53,891 bases of DNA from a bacterium (GTDB lineage: Bacteria; Deinococcota; Deinococci; Deinococcales; Deinococcaceae): positions 1-53,891 of the forward strand of contig JAJZIR010000017.1 in NCBI GenBank assembly GCA_021810505.1, given 5' to 3'. A model generated the notes under the pieces. It had not been told where the DNA came from, searched no databases, and saw nothing but the letters and a program-made list of their open reading frames with translations. The translations under genes and the position numbers were made by a program. Each line of letters opens with the position of its first letter. Position 1 is the stretch's first letter. Positions 2,001 through 9,545 of this stretch are shown piece after piece.

Positions 2001-4874
2001 TCATACCTCCTCGGCGCCTGCTCGCAGTGCGCCACCTTGCATATCGATGTGGTGGAGCCGGACTCTCCCCGAGCCGACCTCCACCCGCAGAGTCTGCTCC
2101 CCTGCCTGCAGGGTTACTTGGACGCCCAGATCCTGCCAAGACCCTCCCCCGGCTCTGAGCGGATAGATTGCCCCTGCTAGCTCCAGGCGCAGCTCCGCTT
2201 CTGCGCTCTCGGCTAGGGCGCGTACCTGGAGCTGCCACCGGCCCCCTTGGGGAGCGAAGAAGCTGTAGGCCAGCCACTCCCCTTCGGTGAGGCCGAAGAC
2301 CTCGTAGCCCCCTTCCCGGCTCAGGGTGATGTTGACGTCCTCCCAGCGGTATAGATCCCCCGCGTTCCCGCTCTGCTTGGTGGAGTAGCCGATTCCTTGG
2401 CCGCCGCGGTCGTAGTCGCAGGCGTTCAGCCGGGCGGGGAGGCGAGGCGCTGGAAACAGGAAAGCCCCCCGCTGGGGGACTGCCTGCGCTGGGGCTCCGG
2501 CTCTCGGCCAATCCCCCGGATCTTCTCCTAGAGCCGCCTGCAGCTGCAACTCTGGTCCAGCCGCCACCTCGATCTCCAGCTGGCCTAAGTGGGGGAGGTA
2601 AGTCCAGCCTCCCAACGCCAGTCCAGCTGCAGAGTTACGGCGCTCCAGCAGGGCGCCGCCTAGCCGGACGCTGACCGGTTCCGACCGGATGAGCACCGAG
2701 AAGCGCAACCTTTGCTGGAGCGCCGCTCCCTGTCGCTGAGCGAAGCGCAGCTCCAGGCTGCGCCCAGTTAGCCGGCAGCGCAGCTCGGACAAGCTGCCGT
2801 CCACCGGCCCGTCCCCGGCATCCTGATAGAGCAAAGCCTGGCTCTCCCCGTGGGGGAAGACCAAGATCTCCAGCCGCTCCTCAGGGGGATAACCGGCCCT
2901 GACCAGCGGCGCCAGTGGGATCAGGCTGCCGGCCCGGACGAACAGGGGGATGCGGTCCGCCTCGGCGGGCACGGTGGCTGGTCCCGGCGGATACGCCAGC
3001 TTGCTGTCCCAGTCGATCCAGAGCCCCGCTGGGAAATAGACCTGGCGGCTGACCGCAGCTTCTTCTAAAACGGGAGCGACCAGCAGGGCGTCCCCGAACA
3101 GGAACTGGTCCCCCAGGTCGGCGGTCTGGGGATCTTCGGGATAATCGAACACCAGCGGCCTCAGCATCGGTAGCCCTTCGGTGTGCTGCCTCCAGGCCGC
3201 GGTGTAGATGTAAGGCAAGAGCTGACGGCGCAGCTCCAAGTACCTCCGGCAACCCGCCTCCACTAGCTCCCCGAAGTCGAAGGGTGAGGCTGGCCCGGCG
3301 TGGTGGGCGCGCATGATCGGACAGAAACAGGCGAATTGCAGCCAACGCTGGTAGAGCCGTCCGTGCTGGAAGGGGTCATTGCGGTAGAGGTGAACCTGCG
3401 GTCCTTGCCCTTGGCTTTCCGAGATGAACCCCCCGCTGTCGCAGGTCCAGGGGATGAGGCAGAGAGAGGCTTGCAGCGCCTCCGGTGGGTGAGCGGCTAG
3501 AGTGGGGTAATCGCTGTAGGTGTCCCCGCTCCAGACCACCGCCCCGTAGCGCTGGATCCCAGAATTCCCGGTCCGGGTCAGGATGAAGGGGCGGCGTTCT
3601 GGCGCTTCTCGCTGCTGTATACGGAAGTAGCTCTGGGTGAGCAACAGGGAGTAGATGTTGTGGACCTCGGCCCTGGGGGCGCCGCGGTAGATCGCCTCTG
3701 GGGGATCTCCCTCAGGTTCGGTGAGGTCCAGCCACCACCCAGAGATTCCGGATTTCAGCAGCGGCCGCAGCTGAGGCCAGAGCCAGCTGTCGAATCCGGG
3801 GGCGGTGACGTCCAGGAGATTTCCCCCGTAGTGCCCGCAGCGCACCGGCTGTCCCGAAGGGTCGGTGACGAACAGGCCGAGCTCCAGCGCGCTCGGGTGG
3901 TTGGGGCTGTCCGGCCGGATCATCGGTCCGCTGTTGGAGAGGATCAGGTGGACGCCACTCCTCAGGTACTCGGCCACTTTCTGGGGGCTCTCCGGACCGA
4001 AGCGGGAGTTCCAGCTGAAGTCGTGCAGGTGCGCTGCCCAGTCGTAGTCCAGAAAGAGGCCGTCCAGCGGGAGGCCTCTAGCGGCGAAGCTGCTCACAAC
4101 TTCTTCTACTTCTTCCCAGTTCTGGTAGCTGCAGCGGCTCTGCAAGAAGCCGTAAGCCCACTTGGGGAGCAGGGAAGGCCTGCCGGTCAGCGCGCCGTAG
4201 CGGGCCACCACCTCCCCTGGGCTGGGGCCTGCGATCAGGTAGAAGCGCAGCGGCCCCCCGCTGGCTTCCAGGCAGATTGCCTGCGGATCAGATTGGGCCA
4301 GGTCGGCGCTGAGCCGGTGCGAGCTGTCGAAGAAGACGCCGTAGCTCCCTGCTGCCGGATCGTTGGCCAGCAGGAAAGGGACCGGGATGTCCGCCGTCAC
4401 CTGCCCGCTGCGGATGCGCTGCCCGGTCACCAGATCCCTGCGGCTCCCCCGGCGGTCTAGGTGGCCGTTCCCCTGGTTATCCTGCCCGAGGCCGTAGAAG
4501 TGCTCGCCCGCTCCGACCGAGAAGGTCATCCGGACCTCCGTCCCCTCCCAGCTCAGCTGGCAGCGGTGCTCCTTGCGGTCGCTGGTCCGGAAGCCGAACC
4601 AGCTCTCCCCGGAGCTGAGGTCCATCGTGAAGTAAACACCCCCCGAGCTAGCCCCCAGCTGCGCGCCCTGCTGCCGCGCCTCCAGCTGGCCGGCCGGGAA
4701 TTGGTCGACTGCGTAGGAGCCGGCGCGGAAGCGGCCGGTCTGGTCTAACCAGCAGCGCAGCGCGCCCGGGCCAGCTGCCCGCAGCTCCAGGGCCGGCTGG
4801 CCGGTCCCGGCCAGCCGTAGGCTGGCCGCTCCGGTCCGCTCCCAGGCCAGCACTCCGAGGTCGGCTAACTTCAA
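2001..4874 (-). CDS. GH31 alpha-glycosidase with C-terminal CBM6/35-like domain
   Basis: A 957-residue glycoside hydrolase family 31 enzyme. The catalytic barrel carries the nucleophile in GWWLDLTEPEG (Asp383) and the acid/base in VVWSGDTYSDYPTL (Asp451), both as expected for retaining alpha-glucosidases and alpha-xylosidases. An N-terminal beta-sandwich precedes the barrel, and a C-terminal beta-rich module of about 130 residues (around 815-950, ending LHHIDMQ) looks like a CBM6/CBM35-type carbohydrate-binding domain. No signal peptide is visible, so the enzyme should be cytoplasmic and cleave oligosaccharides imported by the adjacent ABC transporter; a CBM on an intracellular enzyme is slightly unusual. 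Start is TTG at 4874 with GGGGAG a few bases upstream. Exact substrate is unknown. Confidence 0.9.
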   Translation of the reverse strand: MKLADLGVLAWERTGAASLRLAGTGQPALELRAAGPGALRCWLDQTGRFRAGSYAVDQFPAGQLEARQQGAQLGASSGGVYFTMDLSSGESWFGFRTSDRKEHRCQLSWEGTEVRMTFSVGAGEHFYGLGQDNQGNGHLDRRGSRRDLVTGQRIRSGQVTADIPVPFLLANDPAAGSYGVFFDSSHRLSADLAQSDPQAICLEASGGPLRFYLIAGPSPGEVVARYGALTGRPSLLPKWAYGFLQSRCSYQNWEEVEEVVSSFAARGLPLDGLFLDYDWAAHLHDFSWNSRFGPESPQKVAEYLRSGVHLILSNSGPMIRPDSPNHPSALELGLFVTDPSGQPVRCGHYGGNLLDVTAPGFDSWLWPQLRPLLKSGISGWWLDLTEPEGDPPEAIYRGAPRAEVHNIYSLLLTQSYFRIQQREAPERRPFILTRTGNSGIQRYGAVVWSGDTYSDYPTLAAHPPEALQASLCLIPWTCDSGGFISESQGQGPQVHLYRNDPFQHGRLYQRWLQFACFCPIMRAHHAGPASPFDFGELVEAGCRRYLELRRQLLPYIYTAAWRQHTEGLPMLRPLVFDYPEDPQTADLGDQFLFGDALLVAPVLEEAAVSRQVYFPAGLWIDWDSKLAYPPGPATVPAEADRIPLFVRAGSLIPLAPLVRAGYPPEERLEILVFPHGESQALLYQDAGDGPVDGSLSELRCRLTGRSLELRFAQRQGAALQQRLRFSVLIRSEPVSVRLGGALLERRNSAAGLALGGWTYLPHLGQLEIEVAAGPELQLQAALGEDPGDWPRAGAPAQAVPQRGAFLFPAPRLPARLNACDYDRGGQGIGYSTKQSGNAGDLYRWEDVNITLSREGGYEVFGLTEGEWLAYSFFAPQGGRWQLQVRALAESAEAELRLELAGAIYPLRAGGGSWQDLGVQVTLQAGEQTLRVEVGSGRVRLHHIDMQGGALRAGAEEV

Positions 4875-4890: not shown

Positions 4891-5727
4891 TCACTCGCGC
4901 ACCGCCCCGTTCACGATGCCGGCGAAGATGAAGCGCTGCAAGAGCAGATAGAGCAAGACCACCGGGATGGCGATGATCAGCGAGGCGGCCAGGATCAGGT
5001 TGGGGTGGGCGTTGTAGGGACCTCGGAAGCGGAACAGGGCGGTGGAGACCACCCCCAGGCTGCTGGAAGGCATGTACAGGTAGGGGCTGTACAGGTCGTT
5101 GTAGATCGCGATGGTCTGCAAGATGGCCACGGTGGCGCTAGCCGGCATCAGCAGCGGGAAGATGATCGAGCGGTAGATTCGGAAGTAGGAAGCTCCTTCC
5201 AGCATGGCGCTCTCGTCCAGCGACCTGGGGATCCGGTGGATGAACTGCAGGTAGATGAAGATCTGCACCACGTTGGTTCCCAGGTAGAGCAGCACCAAGG
5301 CATAGGGGGTATCGAACAGGCCCAGCGAGCGGATGATCCCGAAGACGGCCACTTGGGTGGTGATGGTCGGGATGAACTGCACCACCAAGTAGGCGGCCAG
5401 AATCACCCCCTTGAAGGGGAAGTCGAAGCGGCCGATCACGTAGGCCACCATGGTCCCCAGGGTGACGTTGCCGATCACCGACAGCACCACGATGTAGAGG
5501 GTGTTCAGGAAAGCGTGGCCTAAGTCGCCCCCGGCCCAGGCCACCACGAAGTTGTGCCAGTCCAAGTGGATGGGCAACTGCAGAGGTCCTAGCCGGTTGG
5601 AAGCGCTGTTGCTCTTCAGCGCGTTGATCAGCGCCACCCAGATCGGAAACAGCACCACCAGGCCTCCGGCGATCAGGGAGAGGTACTTGAGGGTTCCCAG
5701 CAGCGTGTTCTGCAGCCGCAGGCTCAT
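4891..5727 (-). CDS. Sugar ABC transporter permease (MalG type)
   Basis: A 278-residue inner-membrane permease of the binding-protein-dependent sugar class (CUT1). About six hydrophobic segments are visible, and the EAA loop that contacts the ATPase is present as SLDESAMLEGASYFRIYRSIIFPLL. Its ATG overlaps the stop of the partner permease (ATGA, 5724-5727), indicating translational coupling. It should form a heterodimer with that partner. No ATPase gene is in the operon, so a shared MsmX/UgpC-type ATPase encoded elsewhere probably energises the transporter. Confidence 0.93.
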   Translation of the reverse strand: MSLRLQNTLLGTLKYLSLIAGGLVVLFPIWVALINALKSNSASNRLGPLQLPIHLDWHNFVVAWAGGDLGHAFLNTLYIVVLSVIGNVTLGTMVAYVIGRFDFPFKGVILAAYLVVQFIPTITTQVAVFGIIRSLGLFDTPYALVLLYLGTNVVQIFIYLQFIHRIPRSLDESAMLEGASYFRIYRSIIFPLLMPASATVAILQTIAIYNDLYSPYLYMPSSSLGVVSTALFRFRGPYNAHPNLILAASLIIAIPVVLLYLLLQRFIFAGIVNGAVRE

Positions 5728-6617
5728 ACCGCGTCCCTTCCGATACCGACCAGCCAGCGCTGCAGGATTAGGACCACGAAGACGATGATCAGCAGCACGA
5801 TGGCCATCGCCGAGGCCAGACCGAAGTTATTGAACACGAAGGCCACGTTGACGGTGTTGGTCAGAAAGGTCGCCGTCGGCGGCGAGCCATTGGTCATGAT
5901 GAAGGGGATGTTGAAAGCCTCGATCGCTCCGGAGATAGTCAACAGCAGATTGATCTGCACGATGGAGCGGATGTTGGGCAGAGTGATGTGCCACAGCGTC
6001 TGCAGCCTTCCAGCGCCGTCCAGCTCGGCTGCCTCAAACAGCTCGTGAGGTACCGACTGCAGGGCGGCCAGGTAGATCACCATGTTGAAGCCGAAGTATT
6101 CCCACAGCGAGACGAAGGCTAGAGACCAATTGACCAAGGAGAGATTGCCCAGCCAGTCATGCTCCAGAGCTTTCAAGCCTAGGCCTTGCAGCAGGGCGTC
6201 CAGGGCTCCTTGGTAGCCGTAGAGGAAGCGGAAGATAAACACGACCGCCACCGCGTTCATCACGAAGGGCATGAACAGGACCGCGCGGAATAGGTTTCGC
6301 CCCCGGATTTTGGAGTTTAGGATCAGGGCGAAGTAGAGGGCCACCACGTTCTGGATCAGACCGCCGACCAGATAGGCGAAGTTGTGGCCGAAGGAGCTGA
6401 ACAGCAAGGGGTTGCTGAAGATGGCCTTGTAGTTGGCCAGCCCGACCCAGGGATAGCGGGGGCTCAGGCCATTCCAGGAGGTGAAGCTGTAGAAGATCAG
6501 TTTGAGCGCCGGGTACAGCGACAAGGTGGCTAAGAGAACGATGGGGAGGATCAGGAAAGCGGCGATCAAGACCGCCTTCTGGGCCTTGTAGCTCAGGCTG
6601 AAGCGTTGTCTGCTCAC
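5724..6617 (-). CDS. Sugar ABC transporter permease (MalF type)
   Basis: A 297-residue CUT1 permease with an N-terminal cytoplasmic basic stretch (SRQRFSLSYKAQKA), about six transmembrane segments and the EAA motif in HELFEAAELDGAGRLQTLWH. Start is GTG at 6617, preceded by GGAGGGG five bases upstream. The initiation region is duplicated about 70 bases upstream (see the 6609-6704 repeat). It lies between the binding protein and the MalG-type permease, and its order in the operon is typical for oligosaccharide importers. Confidence 0.93.
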   Translation of the reverse strand: MSRQRFSLSYKAQKAVLIAAFLILPIVLLATLSLYPALKLIFYSFTSWNGLSPRYPWVGLANYKAIFSNPLLFSSFGHNFAYLVGGLIQNVVALYFALILNSKIRGRNLFRAVLFMPFVMNAVAVVFIFRFLYGYQGALDALLQGLGLKALEHDWLGNLSLVNWSLAFVSLWEYFGFNMVIYLAALQSVPHELFEAAELDGAGRLQTLWHITLPNIRSIVQINLLLTISGAIEAFNIPFIMTNGSPPTATFLTNTVNVAFVFNNFGLASAMAIVLLIIVFVVLILQRWLVGIGRDAV

Positions 6618-6704
6618 CTTTTCCCCTCCGGGTAGCGCCGAGCCGCACGGGGAATGTCATTCGCCCGCGCGTATTCCTCTGCTCACCTTTTCCCTTCCGG
6701 ATAG
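6609..6704 (-). repeat. Duplicated permease initiation region (27-base direct repeat)
   Basis: Segments 6609-6635 and 6678-6704 are 25/27 identical and both contain, on the minus strand, an SD-like GGA(A/G)GGG followed by AAAAG and GTG AGC AGA. The 6609-6635 copy is the real start of the MalF-type gene; the other copy starts a 9-codon ORF. A short local duplication explains both. Confidence 0.85.
6657..6686 (-). CDS. Nine-codon upstream mini-ORF made by the duplication
   Basis: GTG at 6686 has the same SD and the same first three codons as the MalF-type permease, then runs VSRGIRAGE to TGA at 6657-6659. It sits 40 bases upstream of the true start in the operon mRNA and just below the 21-bp stem. 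It may load ribosomes ahead of the permease or be a neutral relic. No conserved peptide function is claimed. Confidence 0.4.
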   Translation of the reverse strand: MSRGIRAGE

Positions 6705-6745
6705 TGTTGGTCCGGTGCCTAAGAGCACCGGACCAACACTATCCG
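6698..6745. other. Perfect 21-bp stem-loop between binding protein and permease genes
   Basis: Arms 6698-6718 and 6725-6745 are perfectly complementary around a 6-base loop (CTAAGA), one base beyond the binding-protein stop. No U-run follows in the transcript direction. In sugar ABC operons a strong structure at this place protects the 3' end of the binding-protein message and reduces downstream expression, as for malE-malF; that role is inferred here. Confidence 0.85.
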
Positions 6746-6746
6746 A

Positions 6747-8024
6747 TCATTTGGAGGCGAGGCCCAGCAGGCTCCGCGCTGAAGCCCAAGCCTGATTCAT
6801 CTGTTGCAGCGTAGCGTCCAGGTTGCTGCTGGTAAACAGCGGCTGGACTGCGCCCCCGCCGGTCAGGTCGAGTTGGGCGGCGTTGGCGATCTTGGTCCAG
6901 GTGGTCGATCCGGGGAGAGCGGTCAGAATCTTGGAGGCGTCGCGCTCGAACTGGGCGATCTGCGGGACACTCGACTTCTGGCTCTTCAGCGGCGGGAGGC
7001 CGCCAGCGTAGTTGGCGTAGCCTGAGTCCTCGATCATCCACTTGACGAAGGCCATGGCAGTGGCCAGGTGCGCGCTGTGCTTGTTGACGGCGTACATCCA
7101 GTCCGGCCCGGCGATCGCGATGTTCTTCCCGCTGTTGCTGGTCGGGAAGGGAAAGAAGCCGATGTCCTTGCTGGGAGCCCCGGCGCCGATGATCTGAGGA
7201 ACCGCCCAGTTCCCCAGGAACATCATCGCGAACTTGCCCTGAGCCAGCATCGGCTTGGAGGTATTCCAGTTGGTGTTGAGCGGCTGCGGCTCGGCCCAAC
7301 CGTGGTGCACGATGTTATAGACGATGGTCAGGGCTTTGCCCATGGGGGTGTTGGGTGAGAAGGGTGCGTTGGAGTGGACCATGGTGTTCTCCCAGTTGGC
7401 GTTCTGGGCGATCAGGTCGGGCAGGACGTTGCTCCAGTTGGCTAGCGGCCACTTGGCCGTGTAGTTCAGCGCCATCGGGACGATACCGGCCTTCTTGAGC
7501 AGGGCCATGTCCTTGTAGAGCGCGTTCAAGGTAGTGGGGACGTGGGTGATCCCGGCTTTCTTGAAGGCGGCCTTGTTGTAGACGATACCGTTGACATCGC
7601 CGAAGGAGGGGAGGCCATAGACCTTTCCCTTGTACTCGTTGAAGTTGGCGAAGTAGACCTTGTGGTCGAGGCCTAGGCTGTTCAGCGGAGCGAAGTAGGT
7701 GGACAGCTCCGGCTTGGTGATGTTGGGCAGGATTAGCATGACGTCGGGATAGACCCCGCCGCTCATCTGGGCTTGGACGGTGCTGTTATCGACGAAGGTC
7801 TGCCACTTCACGGTGGTGCCCGGATAGAGCTTTTCGAACTCTTGTGAATACTTGGCGAGCATCCCGTTGGCCTGCATGTCGGTCCGGTTGCTCAGGACGG
7901 TGATGGTGCCGGTGATCGCCGAACCCGCAGCCAAGGCTCCGCTGAGTGGCAGCAGAGCTGCAAAAGACCCGAGAAGGCCAGCTACCTTGATCGCCGAGGT
8001 GACCCGATTGCCCACTTTCGCCAT
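6747..8024 (-). CDS. Sugar ABC transporter solute-binding protein
   Basis: A 425-residue family 1 extracellular solute-binding protein. An N-terminal Sec signal peptide (MAKVGNRVTSAIKVAGLL..., hydrophobic core, cleavage around ALAAG) is followed by a two-lobe binding domain with the usual early ITVLSNRTD strand and YPGTTVKWQTF. The preferred ATG at 8024 has AAGGAGG about 11 bases upstream; an in-frame upstream extension would run through the promoter at 8062-8090 and is rejected. It is first in the operon with two permeases, GH31 and AGE genes, so an alpha-linked oligosaccharide is the likely ligand. The 21-bp stem after the stop fits overexpression relative to the permeases. Confidence 0.92.
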   Translation of the reverse strand: MAKVGNRVTSAIKVAGLLGSFAALLPLSGALAAGSAITGTITVLSNRTDMQANGMLAKYSQEFEKLYPGTTVKWQTFVDNSTVQAQMSGGVYPDVMLILPNITKPELSTYFAPLNSLGLDHKVYFANFNEYKGKVYGLPSFGDVNGIVYNKAAFKKAGITHVPTTLNALYKDMALLKKAGIVPMALNYTAKWPLANWSNVLPDLIAQNANWENTMVHSNAPFSPNTPMGKALTIVYNIVHHGWAEPQPLNTNWNTSKPMLAQGKFAMMFLGNWAVPQIIGAGAPSKDIGFFPFPTSNSGKNIAIAGPDWMYAVNKHSAHLATAMAFVKWMIEDSGYANYAGGLPPLKSQKSSVPQIAQFERDASKILTALPGSTTWTKIANAAQLDLTGGGAVQPLFTSSNLDATLQQMNQAWASARSLLGLASK

Positions 8025-8061
8025 ATCCCTATACGCCTCCTTTTGATTACTAAACAAAGTG

Positions 8062-8090
8062 ATACTAGCATCTCCGCGCCGGCCTGTCAA
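8062..8090 (-). promoter_or_regulatory. Sigma70-type promoter of the sugar operon
   Basis: On the minus strand a consensus TTGACA (8085-8090) is 17 bases from TAGTAT (8062-8067). A near-palindrome GATACTAGCATC (8061-8072) overlaps the -10, and ATTACT-N6-AGTGAT covers the start site around 8046-8063. Either could bind a LacI-type sugar repressor, but no such gene is next to the operon. Confidence 0.85.
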
Positions 8091-8221
8091 GTTCGGGTGG
8101 CTGCGCCCGAGATGGAGCTCGTGCCGGTAGCTCTACAAGGGCACCACTAATCTCGAGGCGGCTCGGGCTGGGTCCGGCGGGTATTCGCTGCTCCCGCCCC
8201 GCTGCAGTTTCAGATTGGGAG

Positions 8222-8239
8222 CCAGCTCGGGCGAGCTGC
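8222..8239. other. Short inverted repeat downstream of the ArsB-type gene
   Basis: CAGCTCGGGCGAGCTG (8223-8238) forms a 7-bp stem about 25 bases beyond the stop of the pump gene. It may terminate that transcript, but it lacks a U-run. The rest of 8091-8261 shows no gene. Confidence 0.35.
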
Positions 8240-8261
8240 GGGACCGGCCCGGCAGGGGCCC

Positions 8262-9545
8262 TCAGAGCAGCAGCCGGAGCTCCAGAACAGCCAGGGTGAG
8301 CAGCAAGGTAGGGATGGTCAGGACCAGACCGGTCGCCAGGTAGCGGCCCCAGCCGACATGCAGGCCCCGCTTCTCCAGGACGTGCAGCCAGAGCAGCGTG
8401 GCCAGGCTGCCGATCGGGGTCATCTTGGGCCCGATGTCGACCCCGACCAGGTTGGCGTAGACCAGAGCGCGCCGCTGCAGGCCGTGGGCGTGCAGCTTGC
8501 CGATGGCCAGCAGCCCGATCAGGACGGTGGGGAGATTGTTGAAGACGGCGGAGAGGAAGGCTGAAGTCAGGCCGGTCGCGAAGATGGCCGAGCTCAAGCT
8601 TCCCAGGTGGGCGCTGAGCCAGCGGCTCAGCAAAGCGGTGAAACCAGCGTTGTTCAGCCCAAAGACTACCAGATACATGCCCAGCGAGAAGAGCACGATA
8701 TTCCAAGGCGCTCCGCGCAACACCGGGCCGACCGTCTTGGGGAGCTCTTTTCTGGCTACTGCCAGCAGCAGGCCGGCCAGCAGCAAGGTGATCAGGCTGA
8801 CCGGCAGGTGCAGCGGACTGGAGAAAAAATCTCCGATCAGCAGCAGTGCGCTCGCAGCCAGACCCCAGCGGAAGACCACCTGGTTCGCGATGGCTGTCTT
8901 GGGCGCCGGTAGCTCCCGCTGCTCATCTCTCCCCCTGAGCTGGGCGCGGAAGTACCAGCTGAGGACTAGAAGGGCGGCGAGCAGGGCGCCCAGGTCGACT
9001 GGGACCATCACGCCGGCGTAGCGGGCGAACCCGATCCCCTCGTAGTCGGCGCTGATGATGTTGGTCAGATTGGAGATGACGAAGGGCAGGCTGGTCGCGT
9101 CGGCCACGAAGCCGATCCCCAGGACAAAGGCTAGAGACACCGCGGCCGGGTAGCCCAGCAGGGTGAGGACTTCTAGGACGATCGGGGTCAGGATCAGCGC
9201 CCCCCCGTCGTTGGCGAAGATCCCCGAGACCAGGGCGCCCAAGGCCATCAGCAGCAGGTACAGGCGCAGCCGGCTCCCACCTGCCCACCGGGCCACGTGC
9301 AGGGCCGCGTAGCGAAACATGCCGGCCTTATCCAACAGGCCGCTGAGCACGATCAAGCCGATGAAGGTCAGGGTAGCGTTCCAGGTGATCTCCCAGACCT
9401 GCACCAGGTTGTGGATGGAGACCAAGCCGCTCGCCAAGGCGACCAGCGCTCCGGCGGTGGAGCTGATGGAGATATCTAGTCCCTTGGGCCTCCAGAGGAT
9501 CAGGCCCAGGGTCAAGGCGAAGAGCGCGGTGGCCAGGGCCTGCAC
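8262..9545 (-). CDS. ArsB-type arsenite/anion membrane transporter
   Basis: A 427-residue integral membrane protein with about 11-12 hydrophobic segments, the same length as E. coli ArsB (429). Hallmarks are GIFANDGGALILTPIVLEVL, SLPFVISNLTNIISADY and NLVGVDIGPKMTPIGSLATLLWLHVL, which match the ion-transporter (ArsB/NhaD, SLC13-like) superfamily and particularly ArsB. No arsR, arsA or arsC is adjacent, so arsenite export is likely by family but the physiological substrate is unproven. Start is GTG at 9545, placed exactly 6 bases after an extended -10 (TGC-TATGCT, 9552-9557) with no Shine-Dalgarno, so the mRNA is probably leaderless. Confidence 0.87.
   Translation of the reverse strand: MQALATALFALTLGLILWRPKGLDISISSTAGALVALASGLVSIHNLVQVWEITWNATLTFIGLIVLSGLLDKAGMFRYAALHVARWAGGSRLRLYLLLMALGALVSGIFANDGGALILTPIVLEVLTLLGYPAAVSLAFVLGIGFVADATSLPFVISNLTNIISADYEGIGFARYAGVMVPVDLGALLAALLVLSWYFRAQLRGRDEQRELPAPKTAIANQVVFRWGLAASALLLIGDFFSSPLHLPVSLITLLLAGLLLAVARKELPKTVGPVLRGAPWNIVLFSLGMYLVVFGLNNAGFTALLSRWLSAHLGSLSSAIFATGLTSAFLSAVFNNLPTVLIGLLAIGKLHAHGLQRRALVYANLVGVDIGPKMTPIGSLATLLWLHVLEKRGLHVGWGRYLATGLVLTIPTLLLTLAVLELRLLL

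Follow-up and report, generated by a model that had tools for sequence, protein, structure and literature searches.

A duplicated translation start between the binding-protein and permease genes of a sugar importer operon in the Deinococcaceae, most likely the relic of a small local duplication

Why should the gap between two genes of one importer operon hold the translation start of the downstream gene twice, and does the extra copy do anything there? The question is raised by a stretch of 53,891 nucleotides from a member of the Deinococcaceae (positions 1 to 53,891 of contig JAJZIR010000017.1, NCBI GenBank assembly GCA_021810505.1; hereafter "the window"), in which three genes of an ABC importer lie in series on the minus strand. 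The first in the operon, listed as an open reading frame at 6747–8090, encodes a sugar-binding substrate-binding protein (SBP; SBP_bac_1, Pfam PF01547, matched on 6747–8030 with E 3.1e-35). Its stop codon occupies 6749–6747; the listed frame opens with a TTG at 8090, and the true start is likely the ATG at 8024–8022, which is preceded by AAAGGAGG at 8043–8036. There follow a MalF-type permease of 297 aa (BPD_transp_1, PF00528; 5724–6617, start codon GTG at 6617–6615) and a second, MalG-type permease of 278 aa (PF00528; 4891–5727). A promoter-like site precedes the SBP gene at 8090–8062 (two sites in the 2.8-kb region, both strands, vs. 0.6 expected), and none of the four proteins scanned reached an NCBIfam cut-off. 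Directly downstream of both permeases, at 2001–4874, lies a family 31 glycosidase with a CBM35-like domain, a neighbor that hints at an alpha-glucoside or alpha-xyloside as the transported sugar.

The gap from the SBP stop to the permease GTG measures 129 bases and reads, on the minus strand, SBP stop, a hairpin (H1), a first copy of the start block, a 9-codon ORF, a second copy and the permease. The upstream copy (copy 1; 6678–6704) and the downstream copy (copy 2; 6609–6635), both read directly from the letters and recovered by the repeat search, agree at 25 of 27 bases and are spaced 69 bases start to start. Copy 1 is made up of 7 bases of the H1 3' arm, GGAAGGG (one G of which is common with the stem), a spacer and GTG AGC AGA; copy 2 has GGAGGGG, a spacer and then the GTG AGC AGA that opens the permease gene. 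Translated from copy 1, the 9-codon ORF (6657–6686, minus strand) reads GTG AGC AGA GGA ATA CGC GCG GGC GAA TGA, i.e., VSRGIRAGE-stop, with its GTG at 6686–6684 and its TGA at 6659–6657; it is in the frame of the permease, from which this one TGA, 39 bases before the permease GTG, alone parts it. The initial annotation had reported a 27-base segment repeated about 70 bases upstream and encoding this short peptide, and both statements stand. The unrepeated 42-base spacer between the copies (6636–6677, minus strand) can form a small hairpin at 6644–6671, as stable in 31 of 500 shuffles and so not clearly beyond what composition gives, and an assembly search for the origin of the spacer returned only short matches of chance level.

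Is the repeat beyond chance? Among 20 first-order Markov shuffles of the window, no pair of 27-base segments reached 25/27 at spacings of 27–500 bases (best 20–21), and the other such pairs in the real window all belong to a tandem repeat near base 89. Near this contig end, positions 91–195 carry a perfect 9-base tandem repeat, ACCTACCTA, in 6.1 copies (91–145), followed by a 27-base repeat (136–195). For comparison we examined 60 loci, seven of which (L093, L006, L010, L012, L016, L058, and L060) were dropped because the gap exceeded 400 bases, was 10 bases or shorter, or had no upstream gene. In the 53 gaps that remained the upstream gene was the longest ORF ending there, of whatever kind, so that its identity as an SBP gene is assumed, and start codons were set by the best Shine-Dalgarno (SD) sequence. 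Five gaps were too short for the block test, which leaves 48 with the window included: the window scores 25/27 and the other 47 score 6–16/27, and a copied start block is conserved in none of these 47, ortholog loci L083–L092, L094, and L095 included. Across the assembly, the core pattern GGRNGGGAAAAGGTGAGC matches exactly at the two copies only, and with up to three mismatches it has 20 hits vs. 9 for a reversed control. As one of the three-mismatch matches is the start of a paralogous permease (L056), the likeness of the copies may partly be a common style of start site.

Short local duplications do occur in this genome. We searched 20 stretches of 20 kb, together 400 kb out of 2.31 Mb, for pairs of at least 24/27 lying 27–300 bases apart. 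They yielded a CRISPR-like array (on L104), repeats within open frames of 405–617 codons (L097, L105, L107, and L114) and two more short, near-perfect duplications, with offsets of 39 and 61 bases, in sequence without clear signs of coding (L104:16165, across which the longest frame has 111 codons, and L104:16720, within a 244-codon open frame). Both of these lie on the same stretch as the array (L104:27–7400, contig C16 of genome G000), whose roughly 100 units are about 72 bases apart; near it stands an ORF (L104:13604–15928) that we take to be a Cas3-like helicase. A mobile or dispersed repeat was considered and rejected, as a 181-base query holding H1, the copies and the spacer found, in the assembly, itself and its own palindrome, the other matches being nine of chance level (14–29 bases, E at least 0.68). 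A literature search for ribosome binding sites or Shine-Dalgarno sequences in duplicate or in tandem gave papers that look unrelated by title and opening lines, which, given its narrow phrases, is weak evidence of absence. The duplication is real, non-chance and local, and it sits in a well-known kind of operon gap; the repeat, its score against chance and the operon content together bear out the earlier description of a translation start duplicated locally within an SBP–permease operon.

What, then, is ordinary about this gap, and what is new? H1 (6698–6745, minus strand) follows immediately on the SBP stop as a perfect 21-bp inverted repeat around a 6-base loop, and the 161-base region containing it folds at −87.4 kcal/mol (z −8.35), a stability equaled by 0 of 200 shuffles. 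A scan of 5500–8300 found no terminator-like site, and H1, which has no T-run and continues into GAAGGGAAAAGG, is therefore not a textbook intrinsic terminator. Its one match to a known RNA family was a sub-threshold microRNA (20.9 bits vs. a gathering score of 104). The malE–malF structure of Escherichia coli is of the REP type; H1 occurs once in the assembly and is thus not a dispersed repeat of that type. By one fixed rule, a strong hairpin is present in 38 of the 53 gaps, the window included, vs. 0–3 of 53 in ten rounds of dinucleotide-shuffled gaps; by group, it occurs in 11 of 13 gaps of the ortholog set, 8 of 15 beside further permease matches in this genome and 19 of 25 from relatives. 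The rule allows loops of 3–10 bases and no bulges, and it missed hairpins that are visible on folding the gaps of L086 and L087. H1, the longest stem among the 38, is accordingly an ordinary part of the gap, a stable stem-loop that recurs in related operons despite differing sequence.

The relatives of the permease point the same way on the hairpin and another way on the second start block. The closest found are those of Alicyclobacillus sacchari, A. hesperidum and a Bacillota MAG (64–68% identical), with two further genomes at 68–70% among the 121 searched. In L083, L084, and L085 the gap runs SBP stop, hairpin, RBS, permease; in L086 and L087 a hairpin stands in the predicted gap fold, L087 (permease 68% identical) having two in series. 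None of these five closest relatives (L083–L087) carries a second start block, their best block scores being 11, 11, 11, 15, and 13 of 27. Nearer in taxonomy, the class search matched the permease in none of the other 110 genomes at E ≤1e-60, and the phylum search, whose listed genomes were the same 110, gave no other at E ≤1e-70, in each case among the at most 21 candidates scored per genome. At a looser cut, related permeases appear in 41 of 41 genomes, a comparison set in which none is of the same genus, with the best 35–38% identical. A permease with Alicyclobacillus-type Bacillota kin and none close in the 110 genomes searched of its own class suggests transfer between distant lineages (4891–8090).

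Since the 69 bases between the two starts are in frame, an N-terminal extension of the permease was also considered, and rejected. The N-termini of relatives L071, L072, and L073 align with the permease as read from copy 2, and the predicted starts of three relatives, set in part from the match and the SD, lie 3–6 residues inside the copy 2 start; with relatives' starts further in than copy 2, no extension is expected.

The order of events can be read, with some care, from the edge of the hairpin. The final 7 bases of the H1 stem also belong to copy 1, and copy 2 repeats six of these seven (CTACCCG vs. CTATCCG) with no 5' arm beside them. Because copy 2 thus bears bases like the H1 foot but lacks the arm that would pair with them, the simplest order makes the hairpin-side block the older one and derives the permease-side block from it, which on the sequence appears a reasonable reading. 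The dimensions of the gap are consistent with this order: the window gap has 129 bases and its scored stem ends 79 bases from the start, vs. 43–101 and 12–56, respectively, in the eight same-genome gaps with a scored hairpin; less 69 bases, the gap would be 60, inside the same-genome range, and the stem-to-start distance 10, just under its range; other genomes supply three gaps (L020, L024, and L027) with such a spacing (10–11). One might instead take copy 2 as the original and let copy 1 arise beside or together with H1, e.g., by palindrome-building template switching, for the perfect 21-bp stem, free of mismatches and the longest of its set, looks young and its foot belongs to copy 1. However, a gap less 69 bases is of the usual size, and as hairpins are general in this position (38/53), a hairpin beside an RBS probably came first; we consider this reverse order unlikely.

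The account that we favor, and hold to be probable, is an ordinary SBP–hairpin–permease gap that underwent one in-frame local duplication or insertion of 69 bases, of which the upstream copy would be the relic. The ancestral gap would have had 60 bases, running from the SBP stop through H1, the RBS and GTG AGC AGA into the permease. By analogy with published cases, H1 most likely fixes the ratio of SBP to permease, either by shielding the SBP mRNA at its 3' end or by attenuation, so that SBP would exceed permease. The event would have copied the 27-base start block, with the 7 bases of the H1 foot that it includes, together with 42 bases. The downstream copy 2, with the better SD, would now start permease translation at about 80 bases from H1, and copy 1, pressed on H1 and with a weaker SD, would yield at most a few VSRGIRAGE peptides.

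Whether copy 1 is as quiet as this account would have it depends on the predicted properties of the two sites, and these are mixed. Paired with the canonical anti-SD, which is assumed here as no 16S gene was found in the assembly, the bases before the start codon give −6.2 kcal/mol for copy 1 and −10.0 for copy 2; if the start codon is also allowed to pair, the predicted values are −9.0 and −10.0. In the three folding contexts, the SD is predicted to be unpaired with a probability of 0.40–0.90 for copy 1 and 0.08–0.59 for copy 2 (higher for copy 1 in all three), the GTG with 0.00–0.03 and 0.00–0.31, and the initiation region (−20 to +13) with 0.20–0.49 and 0.20–0.48, respectively; copy 2 can also fold locally on itself, CCC against the GGG in its SD. 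Predicted pairing strength favors copy 2 and predicted SD accessibility favors copy 1, so that prediction alone leaves the choice undecided. With the SD of copy 1 predicted to be the more accessible and the GTG of copy 2 predicted to be mostly paired, initiation at copy 1 is possible.

Bacterial leader ORFs act by re-initiation or translational coupling, and the 9-codon ORF may resemble them, being short and having an SD of its own, predicted to be weaker than that of the permease, ahead of a gene whose start follows its stop at 39 bases. On such a reading copy 1 would be translated, and ribosomes ending at its TGA (6659–6657) would re-initiate at copy 2 or hold the spacer unfolded, thereby tuning the permease. 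The SD-like block and GTG retained in copy 1, the 39 bases from its stop to the permease start and the higher predicted accessibility of its SD all speak for this. Against it, and unlike in leader ORFs, the permease is served by an SD that is its own and predicted to be stronger, and does not need coupling; the ORF is not conserved in the gaps tested, no other gap having such a copy; the spacer fold to be held open is not clearly beyond chance (31/500); and, since by simple arithmetic about half of all random runs of 14 codons contain a stop, a short ORF needs no selection and is no sign of design. We regard translation-dependent control of this kind as doubtful.

Copy 1 might serve without being translated, as a purine-rich standby site that gathers 30S subunits below H1 and passes them on to copy 2. 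The sequence GGAAGGGAAAAGG indeed lies just below H1 and its SD is predicted to be partly unpaired, but the pairing that masks copy 2 varies with the stretch folded (its SD ranging over the values above), so that there is no firm ground for supposing a standby site to be needed, and the 47 other tested gaps manage with one start block; such a role seems very unlikely. Equally improbable, in our view, is a two-step valve in which H1 would set the ratio of SBP to permease mRNA and the duplicated start would hold ribosomes below it, tuning translation or guarding a processed 5' end. The further proposal of the initial annotation, that the extra copy may tune the yield of the permease or act as a ribosome landing site, found no evidence in its favor: copy 1 has the weaker predicted SD core, abuts the H1 foot, has a start codon predicted to be paired, and is without counterpart in the comparison gaps.

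Some points nonetheless weigh against a relic. The ancestral state would be reconstructed from relatives at most 70% identical and none of the same genus; copy 1 is predicted to be only slightly the weaker (−9.0 vs. −10.0) when start-codon pairing counts, and its SD the more accessible; and the gap modeled without the 69 bases would be no more open than the present one (SD 0.38 and GTG 0.00 unpaired). Evidence for the decay of copy 1 is likewise thin, as 25 of 27 bases are kept and just one of the two changes falls in the SD. On balance, the duplication is most likely a relic with little effect and not a new control device.

Previous studies provide the frame for H1. In the ABC importer operons of Ruminiclostridium cellulolyticum, as far as the available text describes them, stem-loops usually lie downstream of SBP genes as putative internal terminators and differ from canonical terminators in the lower U content of the 3' tract and in longer GC-rich stems (PMC9045158). 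H1 resembles these in its position between the two genes, immediately behind that of the SBP, and in its long GC-rich stem (PMC9045158), but, on sequence alone, differs from internal terminators of this sort in showing no terminator-like U-tract in the scan and in being followed by a purine-rich RBS. The words "ribosome binding" are absent from the text of that paper, and no duplication of a start block is mentioned in the parts available (PMC9045158). In E. coli malEFG, the structure between malE and malF is described as stabilizing malE mRNA (PMC5927463), and H1 is like it in being stable and placed between the binding-protein and permease genes; an effect of H1 on decay would follow by analogy. 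More generally, in the parts available, hairpins between SBP and permease have been published as setting the binding protein above the permease (PMC9045158, PMC5927463).

Set against these systems, the locus would be a tidy example of how a small local duplication can put distance between a start codon and a stoichiometry hairpin without breaking the operon. If the extra copy were active after all, it would represent a simple natural tandem start site for setting transporter subunit ratios.
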